Shown here: positions 8,292-33,892 of the stretch, piece after piece
Position numbering within the stretch: the first letter of the stretch is position 1
Layout: every line of letters starts with the position of its first letter
Assembly (NCBI RefSeq): GCF_024171725.1
Contig: NZ_JAMTCG010000003.1
Span: forward strand, 248,001 to 312,000
Length of the DNA stretch: 64,000 nucleotides
Direction: 5' to 3'
From: Williamsia serinedens
GTDB taxonomy: Bacteria; Actinomycetota; Actinomycetes; Mycobacteriales; Mycobacteriaceae
Notes under the pieces: generated by a model
The model's database searches: none
Seen by the model: only the letters and a program-made list of their open reading frames with translations
What the model was told of the DNA's origin: nothing
Made by a program: the position numbers and the translations under genes

Positions 8292-8450
8292 TGGGCGCCA
8301 GGAACCATCTGTTGGGCGCCAGGAACCATCTGTTGGGCGCCAGGAACCATCTGTTGGGCAGGTGGAACCGGTGGTTGGGCATTTGGATCACGCTCAGGCG
8401 CCGCGGCCGCCCAACGAACGGTTCCGGGTGCCCAACGAACGGTTCCGGGT
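8292..8450. repeat. 21-bp tandem/inverted repeat cluster, locus 1
   Basis: Five direct units starting at 8292, 8313, 8334, 8355 and 8376 share the start TGGGC and repeat every 21 bp (best form TGGGCGCCAGGAACCATCTG; the last two are degenerate). Two inverted units start at 8409 and 8430 (GCCCAACGAACGGTTCCGGG), again 21 bp apart. Transcribed, the two halves could pair into a long stem. It fills the space between the convergent pmt and secreted-protein genes. Short frames inside only echo the 7-codon period and are not counted as genes. Confidence 0.85.
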
Positions 8451-8487
8451 GCCGGGCAGACGGGTTGTCGGCGGCGGGCGTGCCGTG

Positions 8488-9075
8488 TCAGTTCGGCGGG
8501 ATCGCCCCGCGGAGGGTGTCGGTCGACCCGACGTCGGAGGCGACGTAGATCTGGTCGAGGCTCGTCTGCACGTCGAAGAACGCCAGCGGCAGGTTCTTGA
8601 GCCGGTCGTCCTGCGCGCGGAACAGCACCTGCCGCCCGGCGTAGCGCGTCTCGGTGTTCACGATCTGGTTCTTGTCCGTGCCGACGGGGTTGAAGATCAT
8701 CGGGCTGATGAACGGGGTGCCGCCGCGCACCGGGAAGCCGTCACGGATCGGCGGCCCGCTCACCGAGATAGCGGCCACCGACTGCCCCGTCCCGCCGGTG
8801 ACGTTGCGAGGCCCGTACAGCAGCACCGAGTAGGTCGGGCCGGTGCCGCGGCCGAAGCCCGGGAAGCCGCGCAAGGTCAGGGTGATGTCGAGACGCCCCG
8901 CAGCCCGGTCGTAGTCGACCGTCGCCGACCGCAGGTCGACGCTGCCCGGCGCGGCCTTCACCGGCGACGGCACCGTCACCGACCCGGCGGACGCCGGGGC
9001 CGCACCCACCGCGACGCCCGCGGCGACGAGGACTCCGGCGAGAGCTGTGGTGGACCACCGTGCGGTACGACGCAT
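8488..9075 (-). CDS. Secreted protein of unknown function
   Basis: A 195-residue exported protein. The N-terminus is a Sec-type signal peptide: MRRTAR, a hydrophobic stretch, and probable cleavage after ASA at residue 30. The mature part is rich in beta-strand-like segments and small residues (LDITLTLRGFPGFGRGTG) and has no recognised catalytic motif and no cysteines. The ATG at 9075 is chosen because AGGAG lies 6-10 bases upstream and because it gives a clean signal peptide. I do not recognise the family; it probably lies outside the membrane or in the cell envelope. Confidence 0.72.
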   Translation of the reverse strand: MRRTARWSTTALAGVLVAAGVAVGAAPASAGSVTVPSPVKAAPGSVDLRSATVDYDRAAGRLDITLTLRGFPGFGRGTGPTYSVLLYGPRNVTGGTGQSVAAISVSGPPIRDGFPVRGGTPFISPMIFNPVGTDKNQIVNTETRYAGRQVLFRAQDDRLKNLPLAFFDVQTSLDQIYVASDVGSTDTLRGAIPPN

Positions 9076-9180
9076 CGAGACTCCTGTGAGATCCGCCGCC
9101 GGGATGCGGCACTGTGACGAGTATCGCATCCCGGATCAACGATCCTCCGCCGAGTCAGCCCGTCGGCCGGCGCCCGCCCG

Positions 9181-10908
9181 TCAGATCTTGTCGGCGGGCG
9201 GCGGCGGGTCGAGCAGGGACGCGTCGACGGGGACGCTGCCCGACGGCAGGACGTCGGTCGTCGGGTCGGTCGCGGCGAGGGTGTTCGCGTGGACGCGGAC
9301 CTTGTCGTCGATGCCCTCCGCGCGCTGCCGCGCGGCGATGATCAGCGGGTCGCGACGGAGGTCCAGGAAGAGCGACACGCACATCGCGATCATGACGATG
9401 ACGAAGGGCAGCGCCGCGATGATCGCCATCGTCTTGATGCCCTCGAGTGCGTCGTCGCCGCTGACCCACAGCAACAGTGCCGCGACGGCACCGGTCAGGA
9501 CACCCCAGAAGACGGTCACGCTCCGCGACGGTTCGGCACGTCCCCGCTGCGACAGCGTGGCCATCACCAGCGAGGCGGAGTCCGCACCCGACACGAAGAA
9601 GATGGCGACCAGCACCATCACGAGCACCGAGGCGATCCCGGCGAGCGGCAGGTTGTTCAGCATGTCGAACAGCTGCGATTCCTCGTTCTCGCTGTTCGAC
9701 AGGCCCTTCCCGGCCATCTCCTGACTGATGGCGGTACCGCCGAAGACGGCGAACCACACCAGCGAGACGGTGGTCGGAACGATCATCACGCCGATGACGA
9801 ACTGACGGATGGTCCGGCCGCGACTGATCTTGGCCAGGAACATGCCGACGAACGGGGTCCAGGAGACCCACCACGCCCAGTAGAAGATCGTCCAGCCCGA
9901 CAGCCACTCCTGGCCGGCGGCGTCGGTGGTGGCGGCGCTGCGCGCGGCGTCGGACGTGATGTCGTTGAGGTAGCTGCCGATGGACGTCGGCATGATGTTC
10001 ATGATGAAGACCGTCGGCCCGACGACGAACACGAAGAGCGCGAGCACGATGGCCAGCACCATGTTGATGTTCGACAGCCACTGGATTCCCTTGGCCACAC
10101 CGGACACGGCCGAGGCGACGAATGCCGCTGTGAGCACCGCGATCACGGCCACGAGCAGGTACTTGCCGCTCTCCCCGACCCAGTCCAGTTCCTCGAAGCC
10201 CGAACCGATCTGTGCCGCACCGAGTCCCAGGGACGCGACGGTGCCGAACAGGGTGGCGAAGATGGCCAGGATGTCGATGACCTTGCCGCCCCAGCCGTTC
10301 GCGCGATGGCCGAGCAGCGGGGCGAACACCGCGCTCATCAGCTGGCCGCGACCGCAGCGATAGGTGCTGTAGGCGATCGCCAGGCCGACGACGGCGTACA
10401 TCGCCCAGGGGTGCAGACCCCAGTGGAACATGGTGGTGGCCATGGCGACACCCACGTCGCGCGCGTCGGTTCCGGGCGGCGCGTTGACGTAGTGCGTGAG
10501 CGGTTCGTAGGCGCCGTAGAACATCAAGCCGATGCCCATGCCGGCGCTGAACATCATCGCGATCCAGCTGATGGTGCGGTACTCGGGCTTCTCGCCGTCA
10601 CGCCCGAGGGGGATCTTCCCGTACTTGCTGACGGCCAGGAAGATCGCGAACAGCACGAACGCCGTCGCCGCGAGGATGAACAGCCAGCCCAGGTTGTCGG
10701 TGATGCCGGCCAGGACCGACGCCGTGCCCTCCTTCAGGCCCGACTTGTCGACGATCCCCCAGACGAGGAACGCGACGACCAGCACCGCGGTGACACCGAA
10801 CACGACGACGTCGACACCGGCACGTCGCCGACCGGTGGGCGGTGTGGGCGGGGCTCCGGCGGTGTCACCGTGCTCTCCGGTGGCGGGGGTGGGTGTCGTG
10901 ACTGCCAT
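9181..10908 (-). CDS. BCCT-family betaine/choline/carnitine transporter
   Basis: Sodium- or proton-coupled uptake of trimethylammonium compounds such as glycine betaine or choline, used for osmoprotection. About 575 residues with twelve hydrophobic segments. The family signature FYWAWWVSWTPFVGMFLAK is at about 342-360, and a SAGMGIGLMFYG glycine-rich helix is at about 121-132. A charged tail follows the last helix, as in osmotically regulated BCCT carriers. The ATG at 10908 is chosen; an upstream ATG at 10953 and a GTG at 10917 are in frame. No biosynthetic or regulatory partner is adjacent, so the exact substrate is open. Confidence 0.92.
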   Translation of the reverse strand: MAVTTPTPATGEHGDTAGAPPTPPTGRRRAGVDVVVFGVTAVLVVAFLVWGIVDKSGLKEGTASVLAGITDNLGWLFILAATAFVLFAIFLAVSKYGKIPLGRDGEKPEYRTISWIAMMFSAGMGIGLMFYGAYEPLTHYVNAPPGTDARDVGVAMATTMFHWGLHPWAMYAVVGLAIAYSTYRCGRGQLMSAVFAPLLGHRANGWGGKVIDILAIFATLFGTVASLGLGAAQIGSGFEELDWVGESGKYLLVAVIAVLTAAFVASAVSGVAKGIQWLSNINMVLAIVLALFVFVVGPTVFIMNIMPTSIGSYLNDITSDAARSAATTDAAGQEWLSGWTIFYWAWWVSWTPFVGMFLAKISRGRTIRQFVIGVMIVPTTVSLVWFAVFGGTAISQEMAGKGLSNSENEESQLFDMLNNLPLAGIASVLVMVLVAIFFVSGADSASLVMATLSQRGRAEPSRSVTVFWGVLTGAVAALLLWVSGDDALEGIKTMAIIAALPFVIVMIAMCVSLFLDLRRDPLIIAARQRAEGIDDKVRVHANTLAATDPTTDVLPSGSVPVDASLLDPPPPADKI

Positions 10909-11002
10909 GGCCTTCACTCTCGCAAGGAATCGGCCCAACCGCCAAAAGATCACACAAAGGACATTCAGGCGTTACCCGACATCCGCGCAGCGCACACGCG
11001 CG

Positions 11003-11371
11003 TCAGGGCCGGCGTCGCACCGCGGCTGCCAGCATCGATGTGATCTCGTCGTCGGCGATCCCCAGCGCCCGCAACGCGGCGACGTGCTCGGTCGTCGCCC
11101 GTTGCGCCTGGTCGCGCGCCGAGTCCGACCGGGCGGCGACGAACGAGCCGTGCCGTCCGCGCGTCTCGATCACCCCGGCGGCCTCGAGTTCGCGGTAGGC
11201 GCGGGCGGCGGTATTGGCCGCGATCCCCAGCGCGTCGGCGAGCGCGCGAACGGTCGGGAGCCGCGTGCCCACGATGAGGTCACCGCGCGCGACGAGCTCC
11301 ATCACCCCGCGTCGGACCTGCTCGAACGGCGGTTCCGACGACGACGGGTCGATGGTGATGTCGAGCGCCAC
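11003..11371 (-). CDS. GntR-family regulator, YtrA-like
   Basis: A 122-residue short GntR protein. The winged helix covers about residues 10-75 (FEQVRRGVMELVARGDLIVGT, then LPTVRALADALGIAANTAARAYREL), followed by a short helical tail instead of a large effector domain, as in the YtrA subgroup. The GTG start at 11371 lies 2 bases after the arcA stop, so it is translationally coupled to arcA. YtrA-type genes often regulate their own operon, so control of arcA is plausible but not shown. Confidence 0.85.
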   Translation of the reverse strand: MALDITIDPSSSEPPFEQVRRGVMELVARGDLIVGTRLPTVRALADALGIAANTAARAYRELEAAGVIETRGRHGSFVAARSDSARDQAQRATTEHVAALRALGIADDEITSMLAAAVRRRP

Positions 11372-11373
11372 GG

Positions 11374-12606
11374 CTACGCCCCCGGGAGCGGGTCGCGCGT
11401 GACCGGGCAGGACATGCACCGTGGGCCGCCGCGGCCGGACCCGAGCTCGCTACCGGAGATGGTGAGCACCTCGATCCCCGACTGCGACAGCCGACGATTC
11501 GTCTCGACGTTGCGGTCGTAGGCGACGACCACCCCCGGGGCGATGGCCAGGGTGTTGTTGCCGTCGTCCCACTGCTCGCGTTCCGCGGTGACGGGGTCGA
11601 GCCCGGTGTCGATGACGCGGAGCTTCCCGATCCCCATCGCGTCGGCGGCGGCCTCGACGAACGGTCGGGGCCCGCTGACCGACCCGGCGTCGCGGGTGAT
11701 GATGAAGGCCGAGAGGGTGTCGTGGACAGCCGGGTACATGACGACGGCGTCGGTGTCGACCATGGTGCAGACGGTGTCGAGGTGCATCGACGCGCGCCGC
11801 TGCTCGATGGGCACGGCGAGCACGGTGTGCGCCAGTCCGTCGTCGAACAGACTGTGCGCCAACGCCTCCGCGCCGGCCGGTGTGGTGCGTTCCCCCACCC
11901 CGACGGCGACCACCCCCGGCGCCATGAGCAGCACGTCGCCACCCTCGACGGGCGCCGAGTGGGACTCGTAGGCCCGACGGGCACCTCGGAACCGGGGATG
12001 GTGGGCGTAGACGATGTCGGTGAGCGAGGTCTCCCGGGACCGGGCGGGCAGGGCGAGGCTGGTGATGGCGAACCGAGGCCCGATCCAGAACGAACTGTCG
12101 CGGGTGAACAGCAGGTTCGGCAGCGGGTCGATGGCGAACTCGACGCCGTGGTGCATGCGCCGGACCAGTGACGTGCGTGCCGCGGCGGGACTCTCGGGGA
12201 GTTCGTCGAACGTCATCCCGGCGGTGAGCACCGAGACGAGTTCGACGGCGTCGACGCCCCGTAGGTACGCCGCGAGCTCGGCGGCGAGATGGGGGCCGAG
12301 ACGGCGCGCGCTGACGGCCGCGGCGATCCCCTGCATCCGCGCCGCGCCGCTGGCCTGCATGGTCTCGATCAACAGGTCACCGAGCAGCAACACCTCGACG
12401 CCGTGGTCGCTCAGCAGCGCGGCGAAGGCGTCGTGTTCCTCCTGCGCCCGGTCGACCCAGGGCAGACCGTCGAACAGCAGCTGGTCGCTGTTGCGCGGGG
12501 TGAGGCGGCGGAGTTCGTCACCGGGCCGGTGCAGCAGCACGGTGCGCAGGCGACCCACCTCCGAGTCGGCACCCGGGGGCGTCGGTGTCGACGGCTCGGT
12601 CTCCAT
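11374..12606 (-). CDS. arcA: Arginine deiminase
   Basis: Hydrolyses L-arginine to citrulline and ammonia, the first step of the arginine deiminase pathway. The 410-residue protein has the guanidino-modifying-enzyme signatures [16 protein letters not shown] (about 44-59), [15 protein letters not shown], and GGPRCMSCP at the C-terminus, where C397 is the expected nucleophile. No arcB, arcC or arcD is adjacent, so the energy-yielding pathway is not encoded here; ammonia release or acid tolerance are alternatives. It forms a 2-gene unit with the downstream GntR regulator. M. tuberculosis Rv1001 occupies the same neighbourhood next to pmt. Confidence 0.95.
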
Positions 12607-12645
12607 GGACCCACGGTAGTGGCCGCGTGGGGTGCCTGTCGGGGT

Positions 12646-13866
12646 TCACACGCCGTCGGTCGCCGACGGCGACGCGGCTCCCGACCGGACCGGCGCCGTC
12701 TCCCGGGCGACCGACCAGAATCCCAGGGCGACGAGCGGGACGACACCGGTGAGCAGGAACGCCGGACCGAAACCCGCGCTCTGCGCGACGTATCCGGCCA
12801 CGACGGGCCCGCTCACCGCGCCGATGTCGGAGGTCATCTGGAACGCCGCGAGCGCGGTGCCGCCCTGCCCGCGCACCGACAACAGGTCGGCGAGCGACGC
12901 CTGGTGCGTCGGCGCGAACAGCCCGGAGCCGATCCCCGCCGCGAAACTGAGCAGGCCGGCGAGCACGATCGTCCCGCTGAAGCCGAGGACGAGCGTCGAC
13001 GCCGCCATGATCGCGAGACCCGGCAGCATCAGGGGTTTGCGCCCGAACCGGTCCGAGAGACGTCCCGCCGCCAGGATCGCGACGACGTTGCCGGCGGCGT
13101 AGACGGCGAGCAGCACCCCGGCCAGCGCGGGCGACTCGTCGAGACCGTCGGCGTCGACGACGAACAGCGGGACGAGCGCGACCCGCACACCCATCGAGGC
13201 GAACCCCTGGGTGAAGTTCGAGGTGAGGATCGCTCGATAGGCGCTGTCGCGCAACGCCTCGACGAACGACAGGGGCTCGACCACGGGCGCCGACGCGTCC
13301 ACGACGGGTCGCCCACCGACGCCGCGCAGGAGTGTCGCGACGACCAGCGAGGCGACGATCAGCGCGATCGCATAGACCACGAACGGCATCCGTAGCCCGA
13401 ACCCGACCAGCGCGCCGCCGATCAGCGGCCCGGTGATGCTGCCCATGAGGAAACCCGCGCTGAAGAACCCTGACGCGCGGCCGCGGATCTCGGCCGGGGC
13501 CAACCGGATCAGCAGCGCGAGCGCGGAGACGGTGAACATCGTCGAGCCGATGCCGCCGGCCGCGCGGAACAGCAGCAGCTGCCAGTAGGACTGGGCGAAC
13601 GCGCACGCCAGCGTCGATGCGGACACGATCACCAGGCCGGTCAGGTAGATCCGACGCTCCCCCAGCCGCGACACCAGCCGCCCACCGACGGGCGCGAACA
13701 CCAGCCGCATCGCGGCGAAGGCGGACACGATCACCGACGCCGCGCCCACACCCACGTCGAAGCTCCGGGCGAACGCGGGCAGTGCCGGCGCGATCAGCCC
13801 GTACCCGAGCGCGATCACGACGTTGGCCGACAGCAGGACCCAGATCTCGCGGGGGATCGCGCGCAT
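12646..13866 (-). CDS. Major facilitator superfamily exporter
   Basis: A 406-residue twelve-helix MFS protein of the drug:proton antiporter type. The loop between helices 2 and 3 carries GGRLVSRLGERR (motif A-like), and RAAGGIGSTMF with GSITGPLIGG resembles the antiporter motif C region. Substrate unknown. Its ATG overlaps the stop of the upstream acetyltransferase (TGATG), so the two are translated from one mRNA. An acetyltransferase plus exporter pair suggests modification and efflux of a toxic compound, which is an inference from context only. Confidence 0.88.
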   Translation of the reverse strand: MRAIPREIWVLLSANVVIALGYGLIAPALPAFARSFDVGVGAASVIVSAFAAMRLVFAPVGGRLVSRLGERRIYLTGLVIVSASTLACAFAQSYWQLLLFRAAGGIGSTMFTVSALALLIRLAPAEIRGRASGFFSAGFLMGSITGPLIGGALVGFGLRMPFVVYAIALIVASLVVATLLRGVGGRPVVDASAPVVEPLSFVEALRDSAYRAILTSNFTQGFASMGVRVALVPLFVVDADGLDESPALAGVLLAVYAAGNVVAILAAGRLSDRFGRKPLMLPGLAIMAASTLVLGFSGTIVLAGLLSFAAGIGSGLFAPTHQASLADLLSVRGQGGTALAAFQMTSDIGAVSGPVVAGYVAQSAGFGPAFLLTGVVPLVALGFWSVARETAPVRSGAASPSATDGV

Positions 13867-14465
13867 CAGATGGTCCCCGTTCGGATTCGGCGCAGGACAT
13901 GGTGACGGGGATCGTCGACAGGGTTGTCCGGCGGGATGTCACCGGATGCGACGATCACGAACCCGGCCTTCTTCAGCGTCCGCCACGACGCGCGGTTGGC
14001 CGCGACGACCGGCACGAGGATCTCGGTCGCCTCCGGGTACCGGGAGAAGGTGTCGTCCACGGCAGCGGTGACCATCCGCGGTCCGAGTCCGCGCCCACGG
14101 TCGGTCTCGGCGCCGATCAGGTAGTCGAGACACCACGCCGTCGCCGGTACGGGTCCCACGATCGGTTCGAGCGCTGCGACGTCCTCGGGGAGATCGCGGA
14201 TGCGCGACCGCTGGAGCAGTCCGACGGCGCGGCCGTCGATCTCGACGACGAGATCCTCCCCCGGCTCGGTGCCGTCGATCTGCGGTCCGAAGTCCTTCTC
14301 GACCGCCGCGTCGGTGTGATCCTGGAACCACCAGCGGTGCACACGATCGTCGGCGAGCCAGCGCGCCAGCATCGGGAAGTCCGTGCGGGTGAGCGGTCTG
14401 AAGGTGATCGCCCCGGGCACGTTCTCTCGACGGGGGGATCCACTCACCCCTCGATGGTCGGGCAT
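13866..14465 (-). CDS. GNAT acetyltransferase, aminoglycoside 6'-acetyltransferase-like
   Basis: About 199 residues. The pattern ITFRPLTRTDFPMLARWL, then VHRWW and DYLIG, followed by a DRGRGLGPRMV acetyl-CoA loop and a C-terminal NRASWRTLKKAGF, is that of the AAC(6')-Ib/IucB-like GNAT branch. It may acetylate an aminoglycoside-like amine or a siderophore hydroxylamine; the sequence does not decide. The start is uncertain: ATG at 14465 or GTG at 14420 (the latter has GAGAG a few bases upstream). It overlaps the exporter gene by one base and is divergent from the ABC-transporter operon. Confidence 0.82.
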   Translation of the reverse strand: MPDHRGVSGSPRRENVPGAITFRPLTRTDFPMLARWLADDRVHRWWFQDHTDAAVEKDFGPQIDGTEPGEDLVVEIDGRAVGLLQRSRIRDLPEDVAALEPIVGPVPATAWCLDYLIGAETDRGRGLGPRMVTAAVDDTFSRYPEATEILVPVVAANRASWRTLKKAGFVIVASGDIPPDNPVDDPRHHVLRRIRTGTI

Positions 14466-14528
14466 CGGATCACCGCGCTCCAAACTCCTCCCCGCGACCA
14501 GCGACGATGGGGTGCCTACGATGTCCCG

Positions 14529-15401
14529 ATGCCGCTCTCCCTCACCCGTGCCGCGACCGTCGTGTCGGTGCTCGCCCTGTCCGCCCTCGCCGCGTGCGCA
14601 CCGGCCTCGGAGTCGTCCTCCCCGGCCGCGTCGTCGTCGGTCGCGCTCACCGACTGCACGCCCTCGACGCTGAAGGTCATGACGCCGGGCAAGCTCACCG
14701 TCGCCACCGACGACCCCGCCTACGAGCCGTGGTTCTCCGACAACGACCCCACCAACGGGCGCGGGTTCGAGTCCGCGGTGGCCTACGCCGTGGCGGCCAA
14801 GCTCGGCTTCGCCCGGGACGCGGTCACATGGACGAAGGCCGGGTTCAACCAGGTGATCCAACCGGGGCCGAAGAACTTCGACGTCGACATCAACCAGTTC
14901 TCCATCTCCACGCAGCGCGAGAAGGCGGTCGACTTCTCCGCGCCCTACTACCGGGCGGCGCAGGCGATCATCACGCTCAAGGACTCCCCGTTCGCCGGGG
15001 CGACGTCGCTGTCGGCCCTGAAGAACGCGCGACTGGGCGCGCAGATCGCGACCACGTCCCTCACCGCCATCGACCAGATCGCACCGACGAGCAAACCCCT
15101 CGTTTACGACGACACCTCGAAGGCGGCGCAGGCTCTGCAGAACCGGCAGGTCGACGCGATCGTCGCCGACCTGCCGACCGCCTACTACCTGACGTCGGCC
15201 GAACTGACCGGCGCGACGATCGTGGGTCAGTTCCAACCCACCCGCGGTGAGCAGGAGCAGTTCGGCATGCTGCTGGCCAAGGGCAGCCCGCTGACGTCGT
15301 GCGTCAGCGCCGCGGTGAACGCGCTCCGCGCCGACGGCACCCTCGCCGCACTGCAGAAGCAGTGGCTGAGCCAGGCGACCGACGTCCCCGAGCTGCGGTG
15401 A
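14529..15401 (+). CDS. Amino-acid ABC transporter substrate-binding lipoprotein
   Basis: Captures a polar amino acid or similar solute outside the membrane and delivers it to the permease. The 290-residue protein starts with a lipoprotein signal peptide whose lipobox LAAC puts the lipidated cysteine at residue 22. The mature part is a family 3 periplasmic-binding fold (LTVATDDPAYEPWF, FDVDINQFSISTQREKAVDF, VDAIVADLPTAYY). It is the first gene of a three-gene operon; its TGA overlaps the GTG of the permease gene. The family suggests glutamine, glutamate, cystine or arginine; which one cannot be told. Confidence 0.92.
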   Translation: MPLSLTRAATVVSVLALSALAACAPASESSSPAASSSVALTDCTPSTLKVMTPGKLTVATDDPAYEPWFSDNDPTNGRGFESAVAYAVAAKLGFARDAVTWTKAGFNQVIQPGPKNFDVDINQFSISTQREKAVDFSAPYYRAAQAIITLKDSPFAGATSLSALKNARLGAQIATTSLTAIDQIAPTSKPLVYDDTSKAAQALQNRQVDAIVADLPTAYYLTSAELTGATIVGQFQPTRGEQEQFGMLLAKGSPLTSCVSAAVNALRADGTLAALQKQWLSQATDVPELR

Positions 15402-21133: not shown

Positions 21134-22501
21134 ATGACCACCGTCGACGCGTCCGTGCCCACGGTCGCCGCACGTCTCGACCGGTTGCCCGTCGTGCGGG
21201 CGCACCGGGTCGCGACGGCGGTGATCGGTCTGGGGTTGTTCTTCGACCTCTACGAGAACTTCCTCGCCGCGACCATCTCCGGCGTGCTCAAGTCGGAGTT
21301 GTCGCTCGACCGGACCGAGCTGAACCTGCTCCTGGGATCGGCGTTCCTCGGACAGTTCCTGGGGGCCGCGGTGATGGGCCGCTACGCCGACCGCGTGGGC
21401 CGTCGGCGGGCGTTCATGGTGAACCTGGCGGTCTACTCGCTGTTCTCGCTGCTGGGTGCGTTCTCGCCGAACGCCGCGTTCCTCGTCGTCACCCGTTTCG
21501 TCGCCGGGGTCGGGATCGGCGCGGAGTTCGCCCTCGCCGACTCCTACCTCTCCGACCTGCTGCCCAAGAACGCCCGCGGTCGGATGATCTCGTGGGCGTA
21601 CACCGTCGCGTTCTTCGGCGTACCCGTCGTCGGGTTGCTCGCACGATGGTTGGTCCCGCTGCAGCCGCTGGGCGTCGACGGCTGGCGATGGCTGTTCGTG
21701 TTCGGCGCACTCGGGTCCTTCGCGGTGTGGATCGTGCGACGGGGCCTGCCCGAGTCGCCACGCTGGCTCGAGGCCCAGGGCCGACATGAGGAGGCCGATG
21801 CGATCTGTCGACAGTTCGAGGAGCAGGCGATCGCGGCGGGGCATCGTCTCGCCGAACCCGATCGGACACTTGTCGTCACGCCCACACGGGCGGTCGGGGT
21901 GCGGGCGCTGTTCCGGACTCCGCTGACCAAGCGCACGACGATGCTGTGGATCCTGTCGGTGCTCGAGGTGTTCGGCTACTACGGCTTCGGCACGCTTGCG
22001 CCGATCGTGCTGCTGGACAAGGGCTTCGACCTCGTCACGTCGCTCGGGTTCCTCGCCGCGACCTACTTCGGCTACCCGCTGGGATCGGTGCTGGCGGTCC
22101 CCGTCGTCGAACGTGTCGAACGGAAGTGGCTCGTCATCGGGTCGGCCGGTGCGATGGCCGCGTTCGGACTCTGGTTCGGCTTCGCCGGCGCCGCGTGGGC
22201 GATCGTCGTGTCCGGCGTGCTCTACACCATGGCCAGCAACCTGTTCTCGAACGCCTATCACGTCTACCTCGCGGACTCCTATCCGACGGCGATCCGCGGC
22301 ACCGCCGCCGGCGCGGCGTACTCCCTGTCGAAGCTGACGACCGGCATCCTGCCGTTCATCCTGCTGCCGTTCCTCGACGCGAACGGATCAGGGCCGGTGT
22401 TCGCGCTGGTCGCGGCGGTGATGGTGGCGCTCATGGTCAACGTCGGCGTCCTGGGGCACCGCAGCACCGGCCTCTCCGCCGACGCAACCATCGCCCGCTG
22501 A
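21134..22501 (+). CDS. MFS transporter, metabolite:proton symporter type
   Basis: A 455-residue twelve-helix transporter of the sugar-porter/metabolite:H+ symporter branch. Motif A is GRYADRVGRRRAF after helix 2, and a FVAGVGIGAEFALADSYLSDLLP segment follows in helix 4-5, typical of aromatic-acid and dicarboxylate symporters. The central cytoplasmic loop contains RGLPESPRWLE, a hallmark of the sugar-porter fold. Substrate unknown. The ATG at 21134 lies 56 bases after the VOC gene, so it may have its own promoter. The second 21-bp repeat cluster begins directly at the stop codon. Confidence 0.9.
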   Translation: MTTVDASVPTVAARLDRLPVVRAHRVATAVIGLGLFFDLYENFLAATISGVLKSELSLDRTELNLLLGSAFLGQFLGAAVMGRYADRVGRRRAFMVNLAVYSLFSLLGAFSPNAAFLVVTRFVAGVGIGAEFALADSYLSDLLPKNARGRMISWAYTVAFFGVPVVGLLARWLVPLQPLGVDGWRWLFVFGALGSFAVWIVRRGLPESPRWLEAQGRHEEADAICRQFEEQAIAAGHRLAEPDRTLVVTPTRAVGVRALFRTPLTKRTTMLWILSVLEVFGYYGFGTLAPIVLLDKGFDLVTSLGFLAATYFGYPLGSVLAVPVVERVERKWLVIGSAGAMAAFGLWFGFAGAAWAIVVSGVLYTMASNLFSNAYHVYLADSYPTAIRGTAAGAAYSLSKLTTGILPFILLPFLDANGSGPVFALVAAVMVALMVNVGVLGHRSTGLSADATIAR

Positions 22502-22641
22502 CCGCCCACTCGACGTTCGGAACCGCCCACTCGACGTTCGTGATCACCCGTCGAGTGGGCAGTTGGAGACGTCGAGTGGGCAGTTAGGAACGTCGAGTGG
22601 GCAGTTGGGAACGTCGAGTGGGCAGTTGGAGACGTCGAAGG
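22502..22641. repeat. 21-bp tandem/inverted repeat cluster, locus 2
   Basis: Two inverted units start at 22502 and 22523 (CCGCCCACTCGACGTTCG) and are followed by direct units at 22550, 22571, 22592 and 22613 (GTCGAGTGGGCAGTT), with a decayed fifth at 22634; the period is 21 bp throughout. The innermost halves form a perfect 12-bp stem, 22525-22536 with 22549-22560, around a 12-base loop. Relative to locus 1 the order of the two orientations is reversed. It starts at the stop codon of the MFS gene and may act as its terminator. Confidence 0.87.
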
Positions 22642-22649
22642 GGCGACGC

Positions 22650-27369: not shown

Positions 27370-27377
27370 CACCCCCG

Positions 27378-29549
27378 ATGGTGGACGGCGTCGCCGTCCT
27401 GTCCGATGCGGCCGGACGCATCCGCCTCACCGTCGCGTGGGTGCGCGATGACGCCGTCCGAGCCGTCGCGGTGGAGGACGCGCTCGTCAAGATCCCCGGT
27501 GTGCGTGTCGCACATGCCTATCCGCGCACCGGTTCGGTCGTCGCCTGGTACCGCCGGGACACCACCGGGGTGGGTGAACTGGTCCAGGCGATCGTCGCCG
27601 CCCGTGCTGTTCCCGCCGAACTGGTCGCGCGTCGCGCGCCCCATTCGTCGGACGTCGCCAACGCCGACGTCGCACGCATGGCGCTCGGCGGCGCCGCCCT
27701 GGTGGTGCTGGGGATCCGGCGCTACGGGTTCCGACGACCACCGGTCCTCGGCCCGACGGGCCGACTCGCCGCGACCGGCGTCACCATCGTCACCGGGTAC
27801 CCGTTCCTGCGCGGTGCGCTGCGATCCCTCGGCGGCGGCAAGTCCGCCGGCACCGACGCGCTGGTCTCCGCCGCGACCATCGCCAGCCTGCTGCTCCGCG
27901 AGAACGTCGTCGCGTTGACGGTGCTGTGGCTGCTGAACATCGGGGAGTTCCTGCAGGACCTGACGCTCCGCCGGACTCGTCGCGCGATCCGGGACCTGTT
28001 GCGTGGCAACCAGGACACGGCGTGGACGCGTCTGCCCGACGGCACCGAGGTGCAGGTGGGCATCGAGTCCATCACCGTCGGCACCGAGGTCGTCGTGCAC
28101 GACCGAGTCGCCGTGCCGGTCGACGGGGTCGTCGTCGACGGCACCGCGCTGGTCGACCAGTCCGCCATCACCGGCGAGAACCTCCCGGTGGCCGCAGAGG
28201 TCGGCTCCCGGGTGTTCGCCGGGTCGGTGGTGATGAACGGCCGTCTCGTCCTGCGTGCCGAGGCCGTCGGCGACGACACCGCCATCGGACGGATCGTCGC
28301 CCGCGTCGAGGAGGCCCAGCACGACCGCGCCCCCATCCAGACCGTCGGCGAGAACTTCTCGCGACGCTTCGTCCCGGCGTCGTTCGCGCTGTCCGTGGCG
28401 ACGCTGCTCGTGACGCGAGACGTCCGGCGCGCCATGACGATGCTGCTCATCGCGTGCCCCTGTGCGGTCGGACTCGCGACCCCGACCGCGATCAGCGCAG
28501 CCATCGGCAACGGCGCCCGTCGCGGCATCCTCATCAAGGGCGGTTCCCACCTCGAGCGGTCGGGCCGCTTCGACGCGGTCGTGTTCGACAAGACCGGCAC
28601 CCTCACCCAGGGACGGCCGGTGGTCACCAACGTGGTGTCGTTCGATGACGACTGGCAGCCCGAACAGGTGCTGGCCTACGCGGCGTCGTCGGAGATCCAC
28701 TCGCGACACCCGTTGGCGGAAGCCGTGATCCGGTCGACCGAGGAACGTCACATCGCCATCCCGCCCCACGAGGAGTGCGAGGTCCTCGTCGGGCTCGGGA
28801 TGCGCACCCGCGCGGACGGTCGAACGCTGTTGCTGGGCAGTCCCGCCCTGCTGGCCGGCGAGGGGGTCGCCGTCAGCGACGACGCCACCGACTGGGTCGA
28901 CAGGTTGCGACTGCGTGCCGAGACGCCACTGCTGCTCGCCGTCGACGGCACCCTCATCGGACTCATCAGTCTGCGTGACGAGATCCGACCGGAGGCGCTG
29001 TCGGTCCTCGACGACCTGCGTAGCGCCGGTGTGGACCGCATCCTCATGCTCACCGGCGACCACCCGGTCACCGCGGCGGCCGTCGCCGCCGAACTCGGCA
29101 TCGACGAGTGGCGCGCCGAGGTGCTCCCCGAGGACAAGCTCGCGGCCGTCCGCGCGCTCAAGCAGGACGGTCACGTGGTCGCGATGGTCGGCGACGGCAT
29201 CAACGACGCACCTGCGCTCGCCGCGGCCGACGTCGGCATCGCCATGGGCCTCGGTGGTACCGACGTCGCCGTCGAGACCGCCGACGTCGCCCTCGCCTCC
29301 GACGACCTGTCCGCGGTGATCGACGTCCGCGAACTGGGTTCGCGCACCGTCGATCTCATCGGACAGAACTACGCGATGTCGATCGCGGTCAACGCGATCG
29401 GGCTCGCCGTCGGTGCGGGTGGGGCCCTGTCCCCCGTCGTCGCGGCCATCCTCCACAACGCGTCGTCGGTGGCGGTGGTCGCCAACAGCTCGCGACTCAT
29501 CGGGCACCGCCTCGGGGAGGATGCGGCTCCGGCGACCGCTCAGGACTGA
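27378..29549 (+). CDS. P1B-type metal-efflux ATPase, CtpC-like
   Basis: Exports a heavy-metal cation (Zn, Mn, Cu or Cd) using ATP. The 723-residue pump has TGEN (265-268), the transmembrane metal site CPC (360-362), the phosphorylation site DKTGT (404-408), the P1B HP locus (444-445), GDGIND, and a C-terminal NAIGLAVGAGGALSPVVAAILHNASS helix. The N-terminal 80 residues resemble a heavy-metal-associated domain that has lost its CxxC. Together with the PacL-type partner this matches the Rv3269-ctpC pair, which protects against zinc. No metal-responsive repressor is adjacent. Confidence 0.93.
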   Translation: MVDGVAVLSDAAGRIRLTVAWVRDDAVRAVAVEDALVKIPGVRVAHAYPRTGSVVAWYRRDTTGVGELVQAIVAARAVPAELVARRAPHSSDVANADVARMALGGAALVVLGIRRYGFRRPPVLGPTGRLAATGVTIVTGYPFLRGALRSLGGGKSAGTDALVSAATIASLLLRENVVALTVLWLLNIGEFLQDLTLRRTRRAIRDLLRGNQDTAWTRLPDGTEVQVGIESITVGTEVVVHDRVAVPVDGVVVDGTALVDQSAITGENLPVAAEVGSRVFAGSVVMNGRLVLRAEAVGDDTAIGRIVARVEEAQHDRAPIQTVGENFSRRFVPASFALSVATLLVTRDVRRAMTMLLIACPCAVGLATPTAISAAIGNGARRGILIKGGSHLERSGRFDAVVFDKTGTLTQGRPVVTNVVSFDDDWQPEQVLAYAASSEIHSRHPLAEAVIRSTEERHIAIPPHEECEVLVGLGMRTRADGRTLLLGSPALLAGEGVAVSDDATDWVDRLRLRAETPLLLAVDGTLIGLISLRDEIRPEALSVLDDLRSAGVDRILMLTGDHPVTAAAVAAELGIDEWRAEVLPEDKLAAVRALKQDGHVVAMVGDGINDAPALAAADVGIAMGLGGTDVAVETADVALASDDLSAVIDVRELGSRTVDLIGQNYAMSIAVNAIGLAVGAGGALSPVVAAILHNASSVAVVANSSRLIGHRLGEDAAPATAQD

Positions 29550-30010
29550 GGGCGCAGCGCAGCCTCCACACGTTCCAGCAGAGGTCGTTGGGCGGACAGG
29601 ATCTTGCGGCCTGCGGTGTCGAGGTCGAACCACTCGACGCGGTCCACCTCCGGGAATGCCTGCACGCGACCGGATCCGCGCGGCCACTCCATCTCGAAGG
29701 TGTTGCTCACCGACGTGCGCGGGTCGACGTCGACCTCGATGACGAACGCGGTGACCACCTTCCCGCTCTTCTGGGTGATCTCGCCGATGGCCGCCAGTCC
29801 GGCGGGATCGACTGCGACGCCGACCTCCTCGGCGAACTCGCGTGCGGCGGCGTCCCGCGGGTCCTCGTCGGTGTACTCCCCCTTCGGGATCGACCACGCG
29901 CCCTCGTCGCGGCGGGCCCACAGCGGGCCGCCGGGGTGGGCGAGCAGGACCTGAAGGGGCGCTCCGGAGGCGCGGCGGACCGCGATCACCCCGGCGCTAC
30001 GGCGTGGCAA
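29540..30010 (-). CDS. NUDIX hydrolase
   Basis: A 156-residue NUDIX pyrophosphohydrolase, likely active on nucleotides or dinucleoside polyphosphates. The NUDIX box spans residues 44-64 (GEYTDEDPRDAAAREFAEEVG) and fits G-x5-E-x7-REUxEExGU. The N-terminal VLLAHPGGPLWARRDEGAWSIPKG resembles small Ap4A/ADP-ribose hydrolases. The ATG at 30010 lies within the end of the small membrane-protein gene, so both are co-translated. It overlaps the convergent ATPase gene by 10 bases. Confidence 0.9.
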   Translation of the reverse strand: MPRRSAGVIAVRRASGAPLQVLLAHPGGPLWARRDEGAWSIPKGEYTDEDPRDAAAREFAEEVGVAVDPAGLAAIGEITQKSGKVVTAFVIEVDVDPRTSVSNTFEMEWPRGSGRVQAFPEVDRVEWFDLDTAGRKILSAQRPLLERVEAALRPQS

Positions 30011-30146
30011 CGCTCGTCGTCTCCTCTCGGGACGCGCGTCGACGTTCGCACTCGCTGCGGCGGATCGCCGCGCCGATCGTCAGCGCGGTCGCGGCCGCGA
30101 TCATCAGCCACACCACCACGGCTATGACGACGATCACAGCGATCAT
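29997..30146 (-). CDS. Single-helix small membrane protein
   Basis: A 49-residue protein: an N-terminal transmembrane helix (MIAVIVVIAVVVWLMIAAAT) and a basic cytoplasmic tail (RRSECERRRASREE). ATG at 30146 is chosen; a longer form starting at 30179 is possible. It overlaps the start of the NUDIX gene by 14 bases, which favours it being translated. No function can be assigned. Confidence 0.5.
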   Translation of the reverse strand: MIAVIVVIAVVVWLMIAAATALTIGAAIRRSECERRRASREETTSVATP

Positions 30147-30203
30147 GTCGAAATCGTCGCCGTCCGAGGCGAGGAACACAAGGGCCGACGGGCAACGCGC
30201 CGG

Positions 30204-31118
30204 TCACGACTTGCTCACGATCGCGTCGAGCAGCGCGACGATCTCGGCCGGCGCGGGGTAGGAGGCATGCGTTCCCGACGTCTGTACGGCCAGCGAACCC
30301 GCGGCCACCGCCCACCGGATCGCCTCGGGCAGCGCATCACCGACGGCCAGTCGCGCAGCCAGCACGCCGACGAAAGCATCTCCGGCACCGGTGGAGTCGA
30401 CCACCTCCACCTCGGGCGGCGTCACAGAACCGCCCGCCTCGGCTGTCACCCACACAGCTCCCGCCGCTCCGAGTGTGACGACGACCGACAGCGCGCCGCG
30501 ATCGATCACGGACGCGGCGGCCGACCGTGCCTGCGACGGACCGTCGACGACGACGTCGGCGAGGACGGCGAGCTCGTGTTCGTTGACCACCAACGGATCA
30601 CACGACGGCAGCACGTCGGTCACGTCCCGGGCGGGTGCGGCGTTCACGACCAGTCGACCGCGACATGCCTCCGCCACAGCGGCGTTCACTGTCGAGGGGA
30701 TCTCCATCTGACAGACGACGACCGCGGCGTCGGCGACCCGGCGCCGTTCACCGTCGTCGAGTCCGTCCCATGCGTCGTTGGCGCCCGCGTCCAGGACGAT
30801 CGTGTTCTCGCCCGCCGCGACCTGGATGAACGCCGTGCCGGTCGCGGCGTCGGGGACCTCCCGCAGCAGTGCGACGTCGACGTCATGTGCGGCCATCTCG
30901 TCACGGACCGCGCGGCCCTCCGGTCCACCGCCGACGCGTCCGACGAACGCGACGTCGTCGTGCACGCGTCGGGCCGCGACCGCCTGGTTGGCACCCTTGC
31001 CACCCAGGTTGCGACGGACCTCGACCGCCCGCAGCGTCTCACCCGGCCGCGGGAACCGCTCCAGTTCGGCCACGACGTCGGTGTTCACCGACCCGACCAC
31101 CACGACCGACGCACCCAT
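30204..31118 (-). CDS. rbsK: Ribokinase
   Basis: Phosphorylates D-ribose to ribose 5-phosphate in the cytoplasm. The 304-residue PfkB-family protein begins with VVVVGSVNTDVV, has the substrate-binding NLGGKGANQA (37-46) and the C-terminal signature DSTGAGDAFVG, whose aspartate is the catalytic base; NEHELA is also typical. No ribose transporter or repressor is adjacent, so it may salvage ribose from nucleosides. Strict substrate cannot be proved from sequence, but the pattern is ribokinase rather than fructokinase. Confidence 0.92.
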   Translation of the reverse strand: MGASVVVVGSVNTDVVAELERFPRPGETLRAVEVRRNLGGKGANQAVAARRVHDDVAFVGRVGGGPEGRAVRDEMAAHDVDVALLREVPDAATGTAFIQVAAGENTIVLDAGANDAWDGLDDGERRRVADAAVVVCQMEIPSTVNAAVAEACRGRLVVNAAPARDVTDVLPSCDPLVVNEHELAVLADVVVDGPSQARSAAASVIDRGALSVVVTLGAAGAVWVTAEAGGSVTPPEVEVVDSTGAGDAFVGVLAARLAVGDALPEAIRWAVAAGSLAVQTSGTHASYPAPAEIVALLDAIVSKS

Positions 31119-31200
31119 GGGTCCGATGATGCCGGATCGGCGGGCCCGGGCCGCTGAGTAAGGTCGGGTGGGTCACACCAGCGGGCAGCGGAGGTAGGTC

Positions 31201-32904
31201 GTGGACGTCGACGTCATCGTGGTCGGAGCCGGTCTCGCCGGCCTGGTCACCGCACACGAGCTCACGACGGCGGGCCACCGCGTCGCCCTGCTCGACCAGG
31301 AGAACGCCGCGAACCTCGGCGGGCAGGCCTGGTGGTCCTTCGGCGGCCTGTTCTTCGTCGACAGCCCCGAGCAGCGCCGCCTGCGTGTCCACGACTCCCT
31401 CGAGCTCGCATGGCGCGACTGGCAGAACAGCGCCGGGTTCGACCGACTCGACGACGAGGACTCGTGGGCGGTGAGGTGGGCCCGCGCGTACGTCGAGTTC
31501 GCGGCCGGCGAGAAGCGATCGTGGCTCGACGGCCACGGGGTCACCTTCCTCCCGACCGTCGGGTGGGCCGAGCGCGGCGGCATGCGCGCCGACGCGCACG
31601 GCAACTCCGTCCCCCGCTTCCACGTCGCCTGGGGCACCGGCACCGGGATCGTGAAGCCGTTCGCCGAGTCGGCGCGGCGAGCGTCGACCACCGGGTCGCT
31701 CGACCTCCACCACCGCCACCGCGTCGACGAACTGATCGTCGAGGGCGGCGCTGTCGTCGGTGTGCGGGGCTCGCTCCTCGAGCCCGACGTCGCCGTCCGC
31801 GGCGCACCGTCGTCGCGGGTCGTGATCGGCGACTTCGAGATGCGTGCACAGGCGGTCGTCGTCACCTCCGGTGGCATCGGCGGCAACCACGAGATGGTCC
31901 GCAAGTTCTGGCCGGAACGTCTCGGCACGCCCCCGACGACGATGGTCACGGGTGTGCCCGAACACGTCGACGGCCGCATGCTCGACATCGCCGAGTCCGC
32001 CGGGGCCCGGCTGGTGAACCGGGATCGCATGTGGCACTACACCGAGGGTGTCGCGAACTGGGACGCGATCTGGCCGTCGCACGGCATCCGCATCCTGCCG
32101 GGCCCGTCGTCGATGTGGTTCGACGCGCTCGGCCGCCGCCTGCCCGACCCGTGCCTCCCCGGCTTCGACACCCTCTCGACGCTGCGCCACCTGCGCACCA
32201 CGCCGGACATCGCGGTGTACGACCACTCCTGGTTCGTCCTCAACCAACGGATCATCGCCAAGGAGTTCGCTCTCTCGGGCTCGGAGCAGAACCCCGACAT
32301 CACCTCCGGCGGCCGGATGGCGATGGTGCGCGAGCGCGTCCTCGGTTCGGGCGCACCCGCGCCCGTGCAGGCGTTCATCGACAAGGGCGTCGACTTCGTG
32401 ACCGCGTCCACCGTCGAGGAACTCGTGCGGAAGATGAACGGCCTCACCGACTCCCCCCTGCTCGACGCGGCGGCCGTCCGTCGCCAGATCGAGGCGCGCG
32501 ACGCCCAGCTGGACAACGCGTACTGCAAGGACAGCCAGATCATGGCGATCCGCAACTCGCGCGGGTTCATCGGCGAGCGCCTCGGCCGCACCGCGGCTCT
32601 CGGGAAGATCCTCGACCCCGACGACGGCCCGCTGATCGGTGTGAAACTGCACGTGCTGACACGGAAGTCGTTGGGCGGCATCCAGACCGATCTGTCGTCG
32701 CGGGTGCTCGGCCTCGACGGGCAGCCCGTCGACGGGCTGTACGCCGCGGGTGAGGCGGCCGGCTTCGGCGGTGGCGGGGTGCACGGGTACAACTCGCTGG
32801 AGGGCACGTTCCTCGGTGGGTGCCTGTTCTCCGGTCGGACCGCCGGTCGGGCGATCGCCGCGGCCCTGGGCAGTCGTCGTGCCGCCGTGCGGGAGAACGC
32901 CTGA
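31201..32904 (+). CDS. FAD-binding dehydrogenase (fumarate reductase/ketosteroid dehydrogenase-like)
   Basis: A 567-residue flavoprotein of the group that includes fumarate reductase flavoprotein and 3-ketosteroid delta-1-dehydrogenase. FAD-binding loop GAGLAG is near residue 8; the C-terminal segment GLYAAGEAAGFGGGGVHGYNSLEGTFLGG closes the FAD site. The middle part (SGGIGGNHEMVRKFWP, LSTLRHL) resembles the mycobacterial Rv0785-type FAD-binding dehydrogenases. It probably oxidises or reduces a C-C bond next to a carbonyl; the substrate is not known. GTG start at 31201. It lies 2 bases ahead of the HugZ-like gene, so both form an operon. Confidence 0.88.
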   Translation: MDVDVIVVGAGLAGLVTAHELTTAGHRVALLDQENAANLGGQAWWSFGGLFFVDSPEQRRLRVHDSLELAWRDWQNSAGFDRLDDEDSWAVRWARAYVEFAAGEKRSWLDGHGVTFLPTVGWAERGGMRADAHGNSVPRFHVAWGTGTGIVKPFAESARRASTTGSLDLHHRHRVDELIVEGGAVVGVRGSLLEPDVAVRGAPSSRVVIGDFEMRAQAVVVTSGGIGGNHEMVRKFWPERLGTPPTTMVTGVPEHVDGRMLDIAESAGARLVNRDRMWHYTEGVANWDAIWPSHGIRILPGPSSMWFDALGRRLPDPCLPGFDTLSTLRHLRTTPDIAVYDHSWFVLNQRIIAKEFALSGSEQNPDITSGGRMAMVRERVLGSGAPAPVQAFIDKGVDFVTASTVEELVRKMNGLTDSPLLDAAAVRRQIEARDAQLDNAYCKDSQIMAIRNSRGFIGERLGRTAALGKILDPDDGPLIGVKLHVLTRKSLGGIQTDLSSRVLGLDGQPVDGLYAAGEAAGFGGGGVHGYNSLEGTFLGGCLFSGRTAGRAIAAALGSRRAAVRENA

Positions 32905-32906
32905 CC

Positions 32907-33725
32907 ATGGCCGAGACACTGCGCGACCACGGCGATCCGGGTGATGCACCGTCGGTGCCGGCCCCGCTCGTCGAGCCCACGAACCCGGTTCGTCCGAGTG
33001 CGGCCGAGGAGGCGCGGACCATCGCGGCGTCGACGAACACCGCGACCCTGGCCAGCCTCACCGCCGACGGCGACCCCTGGGCGTCGTACGTGACGTTCGG
33101 CCTGCTCGGCGGAGACCCGGTGCTGTGCGTGTCGCACATGGCCGAGCACGGACGCAATCTCGCGACCGATCCCCGTGCCAGCCTCGCGGTCGTCGCCCCC
33201 ACGTCCGACACGGATCCGTTGGCGGGCAGTCGGATCACGCTCGCGGGCCGCGTCGAGAAGCCCACCGGGGACGACTACGACGCGGCGCGGACGGCGCACC
33301 TGGCGGCGGTGCCGGCGGCGAGGTACTACGTCGACTACAGCGACTTCACCCTGTGGGTCCTGCGTGTCGAGCGGGTGCGCTGGGTCGGCGGGTACGGCCG
33401 GATGGACTCGGCGACGGGACCCGATTACGCGGCGGCGCAGCCGGACCCGGTGGCACCGGCGTCCGGGCCGGCGGTCGACCACCTCAACGCGGACCACGCC
33501 GACTCGCTCGCGTCCATGGCGCGGGCGTTCGGTGGTTTCCCCGACGCCACGGCGGCCAGCTGTACGGGCGCCGACCGCTACGGTCTCGACCTCAAGGTGA
33601 CGACACCCCGCGGCGTCGCCTACACCCGCGTCGGCTACACGACACCGATCGACGGCATCGACGATCTCCGCGCCGCCACCGTCGACCTCGCCCGCCGAGC
33701 CCGCGAGACCGCCGAGACCGCCTGA
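32907..33725 (+). CDS. HugZ-like protein (PPOX domain plus DUF2470)
   Basis: A 272-residue protein with an N-terminal split-barrel flavin/heme-binding PPOX domain (about 30-180: ATLASLTADGDPWASYVTFGLL, RASLAVVAP, FTLWVLRVERVRWVGGYGRM) and a C-terminal DUF2470 domain beginning VDHLNADHADSL. This layout is that of HugZ-type heme-iron utilisation proteins, some of which open the heme ring; others bind flavin. The ATG lies 2 bases after the stop of the FAD dehydrogenase. The third 21-bp repeat cluster follows 30 bases after its stop. Confidence 0.85.
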   Translation: MAETLRDHGDPGDAPSVPAPLVEPTNPVRPSAAEEARTIAASTNTATLASLTADGDPWASYVTFGLLGGDPVLCVSHMAEHGRNLATDPRASLAVVAPTSDTDPLAGSRITLAGRVEKPTGDDYDAARTAHLAAVPAARYYVDYSDFTLWVLRVERVRWVGGYGRMDSATGPDYAAAQPDPVAPASGPAVDHLNADHADSLASMARAFGGFPDATAASCTGADRYGLDLKVTTPRGVAYTRVGYTTPIDGIDDLRAATVDLARRARETAETA

Positions 33726-33754
33726 CGCACCTCGCCGGACCCCACCCCCACTCC

Positions 33755-33892
33755 GTCGACTGGGCGGTTCCGGACGTCGACTGGGCGGTTCCGGACGTCG
33801 ACTGGGCGGTTCCGGACACGTGTCATCGCCACCAGCCCAACGGACGTCTGTAACTGCCCACTCGACGTCTGTAACTGCCCACTCGACGTCGG
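33755..33892. repeat. 21-bp tandem/inverted repeat cluster, locus 3
   Basis: Three direct units begin at 33755, 33776 and 33797 (GTCGACTGGGCGGTTCCGGA); after a short spacer three inverted units follow, the first decayed at about 33834, then at 33851 and 33872 (TAACTGCCCACTCGACGTC). The period is 21 bp. The core TGGGC(A/G)GTT is the same as in locus 2. It separates the convergent HugZ-like and LemA genes and could serve both as a terminator. Confidence 0.87.

Follow-up and report, generated by a model that had tools for sequence, protein, structure and literature searches.

Tandem arrays of 21-bp units were analyzed in a 64,000-nucleotide stretch of the Williamsia serinedens genome (contig NZ_JAMTCG010000003.1, positions 248,001 to 312,000; hereafter the window), where three such arrays lie at the 3' ends of genes, and in the genomes of related bacteria. 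Our results favour, with a probability of roughly two in three, the interpretation that these arrays represent a REPtron-like element in a dispersed form that lacks the nuclease, the complete form of the element holding a gene for a predicted nuclease between arrays of opposite orientation (>>>gene<<<, with > and < standing for forward and reverse units). This interpretation is carried by the linkage between arrays and nuclease gene, its breadth, the match between unit type and nuclease clade, the helical phasing of the array arms and, at orthologous sites, the gain of a complete element, a site occupied by an array alone and differences in array type. From these observations we infer a protein that binds the units and moves them by means of its nuclease part.

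A predicted nuclease gene enclosed by tandem arrays

Two pairs of arrays ~1 kb apart, one in W. serinedens (L327) and one at a different locus of W. deligens (L328), enclose homologous genes of ~290 codons in the layout >>>gene<<<, outside the window. A nuclease search of the 8 available genomes of the genus listed 59 matches, 30 of them with their loci, comprising 19 close homologues (at least 242 bits), with at least one in each of the 8 genomes, and 11 remote ones (<80 bits). When TGGGC arrays were scanned for, 15 of the 19 close homologues proved to have them, 11 on both sides; in two of these, L344 and L347, the unit is in fact a CGTGC-type one that has TGGGC on the opposite strand. The remaining four carry inverted arrays with another core, having a 22-bp period in three. 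When a single autocorrelation threshold was applied to tandem repeats of 20-22 bp, arrays were recovered on both sides of 13 close homologues and on one side of the other 6. In genera g98, g92 and g5, both sides were occupied in all 15 untruncated top-scoring loci, these being the best-scoring ones once L401, L407 and L412, at contig ends, are left out. One flank of L333 contains a run of N. Pooled, tandem arrays accompany 34/34 nuclease loci (28 on both sides, 6 on one side), whereas the same threshold gave no two-sided case among 64 loci of the control gene pmt and four one-sided cases, three of them being nothing other than the pmt arrays of Williamsia. Further, among the 208 genes called in the W. 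serinedens stretches, which were picked around arrays, the nuclease gene alone is flanked on both sides. In most types the unit core is near CG[TC]CGA[GC][TC]G[GT]GC, with TGGGC types in much of Williamsia. A YqeY gene between arrays in L329 was considered as an array partner and taken instead as an ordinary gene with an array at either end.

The encoded protein is predicted to join an AbiEi-like N-terminal part to a Vsr/EDxHD-like nuclease part. All 19 close homologues match the PADLOC AbiEi model, and Pfam matches at E up to 0.1 include MTES_1575 (19/19), AbiEi_1 (14/19) and DUF559 (13/19); for member 1 the MTES_1575 score lies under the curated cut-off. Weak matches to anti-phage models were also obtained (NCBIfam ProA in 5/19 and Hhe in 2/19; PADLOC PDC-S37 in 15/19 and Hhe in 11/19), spanning the nuclease part where their extent is shown. 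Residues E186, D219, D232, H237 and D250 belong to those invariant in 19/19 nucleases, and these acidic and histidine residues of the nuclease part are probably catalytic. In Foldseek, the AlphaFold model of the nuclease (pLDDT 79.7) matched 1zel (Rv2827c, E 8.7e-5) and, weakly, 3r3p, the catalytic domain of I-Bth0305I (E 0.015). Values of dN/dS ranged from 0.06 to 0.15 in nine nuclease pairs. No toxin gene, which in an AbiE system would be of the DUF1814 type, was recognized by eye beside the nuclease at L327 and L328, where no domain search of the neighbors was run; reading them by eye, we take these neighbors to be GH15-, CDF-, MFS- and S9-like.

AbiEi and Rv2827c autoregulate by binding inverted 23-bp repeats, whose gaps of 3 and 13 bp differ by roughly a helical turn (PMC7319586; this and the further sources given by PMC number are cited from excerpts). 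Such a precedent, together with the AbiEi matches in all 19 proteins and the weak anti-phage matches in several, argues for arrays that act as AbiEi-type operators, through which the protein would regulate its own gene and other genes or the nucleoid, while its nuclease part would serve defence or protection of the element and have no role in spread. The helical phasing of the arms and the conservation of many sites and most array orders at orthologous loci, both described below, agree with this as well. Operators are, however, expected 5' of genes, and the arrays stand mostly at 3' ends and bracket the nuclease; the five invariant residues also speak against it, and both the gain at a new site and the differing types at one site require a copying process. 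We hold the operator explanation to be unlikely.

Regarding the breadth of the association, a profile of the 19 close homologues (A1) recovered members in 141/301 genomes of the family at E <= 1e-40, from 21/31 genera, and phylum-wide in 13/396 genomes at E <= 1e-35, 11 of them in this family. In genus g2 (probably Mycobacterium) and other genera, the examined flanks hold single inverted repeats, not tandem ones. Inverted repeats reaching 20/24 bases were found at 11/20 loci of g2 (vs 5.3% of mismatched pairs), 9/20 of the other genera (vs 6%) and 5/11 of the remote Williamsia paralogues (vs 8.2%), compared to 1/64 of the pmt control loci (vs 0.3%); the other genera include the g5 locus L494, which passes the tandem threshold on one side only, and in g4 all four loci have one repeat in common, so that the mismatched-pair null is uninformative there. 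About half of these nuclease loci are without a clear inverted repeat. Several of the single repeats have a common core, e.g., CGCCGAGTGTGAATCTCACGACGC, and those of g2 are imperfect palindromes. A pattern derived from three g2 nuclease loci gave 40 matches in 7/12 genomes, with none for the control; at least 7 of the 40 lie at the three source loci, and inverted pairs with a separation of 39 bp account for 12. Under the reading of a second REPtron class set out below, most genera would show the basal state, with single inverted repeats, and the expanded state, with 20-22 bp tandem arrays, would be that of Williamsia and a few related genera. As for the remote paralogues of Williamsia, TGGGC arrays occur at none of the 11, and one passes the tandem threshold on one side. 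Some of them (L358, L354, L353 and L359) are bracketed by inverted, partly palindromic repeats of their own, e.g., ATCCGCTCCGGTTGCAACCGGAGCGGAC in L358, and these flanks raise the possibility that the wider AbiEi-Vsr superfamily may have repeat partners.

Dispersed arrays and the spacing of their arms

The initial annotation of the window had described three clusters of inverted 21-bp TGGGC repeats downstream of stop codons, two of them between convergent genes, as one family with nearly identical units inside each locus. These observations hold: the step within arms is exactly 21 bp at the three loci (Table 1), both orientations are present at each, and loci 1 and 3 lie between convergent genes, at 84 and 53 bp and at 36 and 43 bp, respectively, from the called gene ends. 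At locus 2 the array begins 3 bp past the stop codon and the next called gene is codirectional; the order <<>> of this array is also found in W. deligens and in the uncultured Williamsia 235-3Z. What the units share is TGGGC together with the bases preceding it, and not the G(A/G)AC end that had been proposed. Two unit types were distinguished, locus 1 being of type B (CCGTTCGTTGGGC-like) and loci 2 and 3 of type A (ACGTCGASTGGGC-like). At gathering score, the sole Rfam match in the window is a tRNA at 36391-36463, with no match to the arrays, and a known RNA family was consequently discarded. A 45-bp tandem repeat of 2.8 copies at 61896-62023 of the window stands outside the TGGGC array family.

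Table 1. Array arms of the window and the genes next to them (positions within the window)
Feature	Position	Strand	Description
Array 1, forward arm	8284..8388	+	Five 21-bp type-B units; TGGGC at 8292, 8313, 8334, 8355, 8376
Array 1, reverse arm	8401..8453	-	Two type-B units; GCCCA at 8409, 8430; last > to first < 33 bp
Array 2, reverse arm	22501..22540	-	Two type-A units; GCCCA at 22504, 22525; directly 3' of the stop codon ending at 22501
Array 2, forward arm	22549..22644	+	Four exact-core type-A units (TGGGC at 22556, 22577, 22598, 22619) and a one-mismatch core at 22640
Array 3, forward arm	33754..33817	+	Three type-A units; TGGGC at 33761, 33782, 33803
Array 3, reverse arm	33827..33890	-	Three type-A units; GCCCA at 33835, 33856, 33877; last > to first < 32 bp
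Gene upstream of array 1	6571..8208 (open reading frame 6424-8208)	+	pmt, presumably protein mannosyltransferase-like; orthology anchor
Convergent gene downstream of array 1	8488..9009	-	
Gene upstream of array 2	21134..22501	+	Presumably MFS transporter-like
Gene upstream of array 3	32907..33725	+	
Convergent gene downstream of array 3	33925..34488	-	Presumably LemA-like

Genome-wide, a three-unit pattern gave 67+48 matches in W. serinedens vs 3+5 for a control pattern read backwards, and 58-143 matches vs 0-8 per genome in the 8/8 genomes of the genus; absence or randomness in relatives, which the initial annotation had named as its refutation, is therefore not what was observed. In an order-wide scan of 397 genomes, only G000 (W. 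serinedens) and G396, the two Williamsia sampled, and G329, of genus g5 (probably Gordonia), exceed the control on both strands, and the notion of a wide TGGGC family across the order was dropped accordingly; excesses on one strand were seen, e.g., in G192 (11+0) and in G189 (9+0), the printed matches of the latter being TGGGCTG runs. A viral source of the arrays was likewise rejected: the pattern occurs in at least 120 viral-contig stretches, and 78 of the 80 listed rows have a single match. Outside the core, the unit varies by species, as a comparison of W. deligens (TGGGCGGTTGGAGACGTCGAG) with W. herbipolensis (TGGGCACGTAACGACCGCAGT) exemplifies. For reference, the pmt protein of W. serinedens shares 97% identity with its 235-3Z counterpart and 88% with the W. 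deligens one. L069, a record under the title Kitasatospora arboriphila, holds a pmt 67% identical to the Williamsia query and ranking among Williamsia and Gordonia, and is possibly a mislabelled assembly.

The gene context was determined for 41 W. serinedens arrays of at least three units, which were drawn from the window and from 38 stretches selected among the first 100 listed matches, with two-unit arrays and later contigs lying outside these counts; gene calling relied on a simple codon model, for which these stretches also served as training data. Convergent gaps hold 26 of these arrays, codirectional gaps 11 and divergent gaps 3, with 1 undecided, against a background, taken from these very stretches and including the array gaps, of 40 convergent gaps among the 163 between called genes. 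By unit type, 23 loci are B, 17 are A and 1 is mixed. The usual order of paired arrays is >>><<<, with <<>> in four (window locus 2, L302, L306 and L323), and some arrays have a single orientation only. In W. deligens (L367:2509-3932), arms orthologous to those of W. serinedens L297 are ~1.3 kb apart, and no gene was called between them.

The distance between opposite arms (last > core to first < core) was available for 24 loci of W. serinedens, 11 of W. deligens and 9 of W. herbipolensis, the last taken from its three-unit matches. Among the distances of up to 80 bp, 39/41 fall within 1.5 bp of 0.96+10.5k; when the dominant 31-34 class is excluded, 17/17 are in phase and the best period is 10.55 bp, and since the loss of a unit shifts the distance by 21 bp, these loci are not wholly independent. 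Both phase classes (11/32/53/75 and 22/43) are occupied. Reversed-order <> distances are 27-31 and 52 (n=7, too few for a phase test). A length of 21 bp corresponds to two turns of B-DNA. Arm distances in steps of 10.5 bp fit a protein on one face of the DNA, and are a step that RNA stems do not need.

Transcripts of the three window loci can fold strongly, as had been predicted, with energies of -100.9, -92.7 and -94.2 kcal/mol (z -6.4, -5.8 and -9.3 from 100 mononucleotide shuffles per locus). These energies, the 26/41 arrays between convergent genes and the ordinary long hairpins found 3' of pmt in the three relatives that were folded would be expected if the arrays worked at the RNA level, as bidirectional terminators or 3' stabilizers, and the nuclease were incidental to them, being a mobile gene that lands in 3' intergenic space. 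The arms of an intrinsic terminator should be kept complementary within each locus, and none of three tests found this when arms were permuted among loci of the same unit type: the likeness of the arms, out of 21, was 16.57 within loci vs 17.29 permuted for type A of W. serinedens (n 14), 15.00 vs 15.82 for its type B (n 13), and 16.56 vs 16.76 for type A of W. deligens (n 9). In W. serinedens the arms of one locus are less alike than in nearly every permutation, which looks like an avoidance of long perfect palindromes. Moreover, the single-orientation arrays and the helical steps are not accounted for by such a terminator, and the tandem arrays around the nuclease in 34/34 loci are left unexplained. 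Helical spacing without extra complementarity within loci is better fitted by a DNA-protein array than by a tuned RNA hairpin, and we regard the terminator explanation as quite improbable. Of the functions first suggested for the arrays, protein binding is thus retained, and a tuned terminator or stabilizer hairpin finds no support as the principal one.

Co-evolution and history at orthologous sites

The distance between nucleases correlates with that between their units (Mantel r 0.73 over 19 Williamsia loci, with 0/5000 permutations as high; r 0.56 over 34 loci, 0/2000). In 16/18 contrasts the unit is nearer to that of the closest nuclease in another genome than to that of the paralogue in the same genome, both failures falling in G396; descent of whole loci contributes to this correlation.

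At one site, between what we take to be a GH15-like and a CDF-like gene, the complete element is present in W. serinedens, 235-3Z and W. deligens (3/8 genomes), and the other 5 genomes have a short gap between stop codons and no arrays, so that array and gene seem to have arrived there together. At a second site, between presumably MFS-like and S9-like genes (MFS-S9), the nuclease is found in 7/8 genomes (six matched at both flanks, G396 at one), and W. serinedens has a >><< type-B array and no nuclease. The region 3' of pmt, for which the gene on the far side differs among some of the genomes compared, holds type B in W. serinedens, type A in 235-3Z and W. deligens, inverted repeats with a CGTGC core in W. 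faeni (L073:6800-7020), possibly an independent occupation of one terminator site, and hairpins in W. maris, W. soli, W. limnetica and sp. 1135. At window locus 2, arrays are present in W. serinedens, 235-3Z and W. deligens and missing from W. herbipolensis, W. maris and G400, and the ortholog of this locus in a Williamsia metagenome-assembled genome (L470) contains another tandem repeat, TGCGGAGCGCAGCGAC-like, and a run of N.

Across 19 orthologous sites of W. serinedens and W. deligens (14 pairs verified through mapping; the other five are pmt, window loci 2 and 3, MFS-S9 and GH15-CDF), array type agrees at 11, is mixed at 3 and differs at 5 (L296/L368, L318/L371, L322/L373, pmt and MFS-S9); the pair L301/L364, with shared flanks and arrays that do not map to each other, was left out. 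Array order is mostly kept at orthologous sites, with exceptions including L290/L378 and L326/L379.

The ortholog of window locus 3 in 235-3Z (L464:448-1842) has an HNH-like open reading frame beside a type-B arm, the listed frame starting inside the array; it matches Pfam HNH weakly (E 0.11), could not be assigned credibly to any NCBIfam family, and is presumably 13E12/DUF222-like. In W. serinedens, a broken gene between two arrays (L313:3091-4413) resembles it by eye. Such open reading frames are perhaps a second nuclease family using array sites. Together with the fold match to an EDxHD homing endonuclease domain, they could be taken to mean that the arrays are host sequence serving as homing targets, into which this nuclease and others insert as parasites. 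With that scenario, arrays should precede the nuclease, and the five empty GH15-CDF sites are devoid of them; furthermore, unit type tracks the nuclease. We consider homing into host arrays very unlikely.

Several observations weigh against a REPtron-like element. Binding, cutting and movement stand here as predictions made from sequence, and the weak anti-phage matches leave room for a role of the protein in defence. The Foldseek match to 3r3p is weak, and a search of solved structures by nuclease sequence gave no match. W. serinedens has 17 type-A loci and no type-A nuclease among its matches, and its own C10 nuclease (L344) has an array type of its own, for which no second array was found in the ~310 kb of W. 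serinedens sequence searched, the greater part of it in stretches selected for their TGGGC arrays. Among the arm distances, the three that exceed 80 bp (98, 99 and 120) are off phase by ~2.5-3.5 bp. Finally, many array sites are common to W. serinedens and W. deligens (19 were compared), so any movement would be slow, and no target-site duplication or exact junction was found.

If the arrays are nonetheless the nuclease-less form of such an element, the AbiEi part would bind each unit, on one face of the DNA since 21 bp are two turns, and the arrays would load protein from both sides. The nuclease part could then nick or cut at or near arrays, or at palindromic terminator sites, with repair copying arrays, and sometimes the gene too, to other gene ends, and slippage or conversion would make the units of one locus uniform. 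At convergent ends, the places taken by arrays are filled in relatives by ordinary hairpins, and the arrays may act there as transcription terminators, either as a by-product or in an adopted role. On balance, and by a small measure, we are inclined to see in them a second, RAYT-independent class of REPtron, in which an AbiEi-Vsr/EDxHD nuclease of the Mycobacteriaceae would read phased units, drive array spread and type conversion to terminator sites, and diversify by nuclease-unit co-evolution.

Comparison with known systems

In the open-access PMC literature, no description of the nuclease-array system was found, only papers on its protein domains or on REPs. The closest parallel is the RAYT/REP system (REPtron, REPIN, BIME), which likewise places an enzyme gene between inverted repeats, has enzyme-less copies dispersed at gene 3' ends and in convergent gaps, and shows agreement between enzyme and repeat trees (PMC2817692, PMC3733652). 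RAYTs are always flanked by two inverted REPs, according to the excerpt of PMC2817692; here the same arrangement of an enzyme gene between two inverted repeats of the dispersed type is found, with the nuclease in the place of the RAYT. This shared layout (PMC2817692, PMC3733652) would also suit the arrays being REP/BIME elements moved by a RAYT or IS200-type transposase, an explanation to which we give next to no credence: Y1_Tnp (PF01797) was found in 0/8 genomes of the genus at E 0.001, with the positive control found in 5/14, and the consensus units of Williamsia are without the GTAG tag and non-palindromic. As no RAYT was found and the enzyme is unrelated, the nuclease-array system is not a member of the RAYT/REP family. 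Unlike the HUH Y1 transposase of the latter, the Williamsia enzyme is AbiEi-Vsr/EDxHD-like, and in contrast to its GTAG-tagged palindromes, the repeats consist of 21-bp units, set in tandem within inverted arms that are helically phased, with a TGGGC or CGTGC core.

If this reading is true, there would be a dedicated enzyme of a second kind for bacterial interspersed repeats, one that is no relative of RAYT. CGTC-tagged REPs are intergenic, occur mainly as inverted dimers at 3' ends and have no dedicated transposase reported in the excerpt of PMC3733652; they are palindromes with stems of 8-9 bp, known from five phyla, Actinomycetota not being among those named there, and untagged REP-like sequences in M. 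tuberculosis are mentioned as well (PMC3733652). A connection between these REPs and the CGTCGA core of the nuclease-linked units would be only a lead. The origin of such transposase-less repeat families is left open in that source (PMC3733652), and the nuclease-array system offers a testable model for it. Natural pairs of nuclease and matched unit from many species would also be useful for learning how AbiEi-type domains read DNA, and the arrays provide a case of repeats standing in for ordinary terminators.

With regard to the protein domains, the MTES_1575 restriction endonuclease domain (PF18741), matched in 19/19 homologues at the E value given above, is a Vsr-family domain, also found in proteins with HEPN, helicase and winged helix-turn-helix domains (PMC3710099); the Williamsia protein differs in having a repeat partner, of which the excerpt of that source makes no mention. 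AbiEi antitoxins (AbiE, Rv2827c) resemble its N-terminal part, by the AbiEi models in 19/19 and the fold match to 1zel, and differ from it by the fused nuclease-like domain. The EDxHD homing endonuclease I-Bth0305I, which acts on a target of nearly 60 bp (PMC3943268), is weakly matched by the predicted C-terminal fold (3r3p, TM on target 0.75); unlike EDxHD homing endonucleases, the Williamsia nuclease carries an AbiEi-like DNA-binding part, and its gene is flanked by repeat arrays with dispersed copies.

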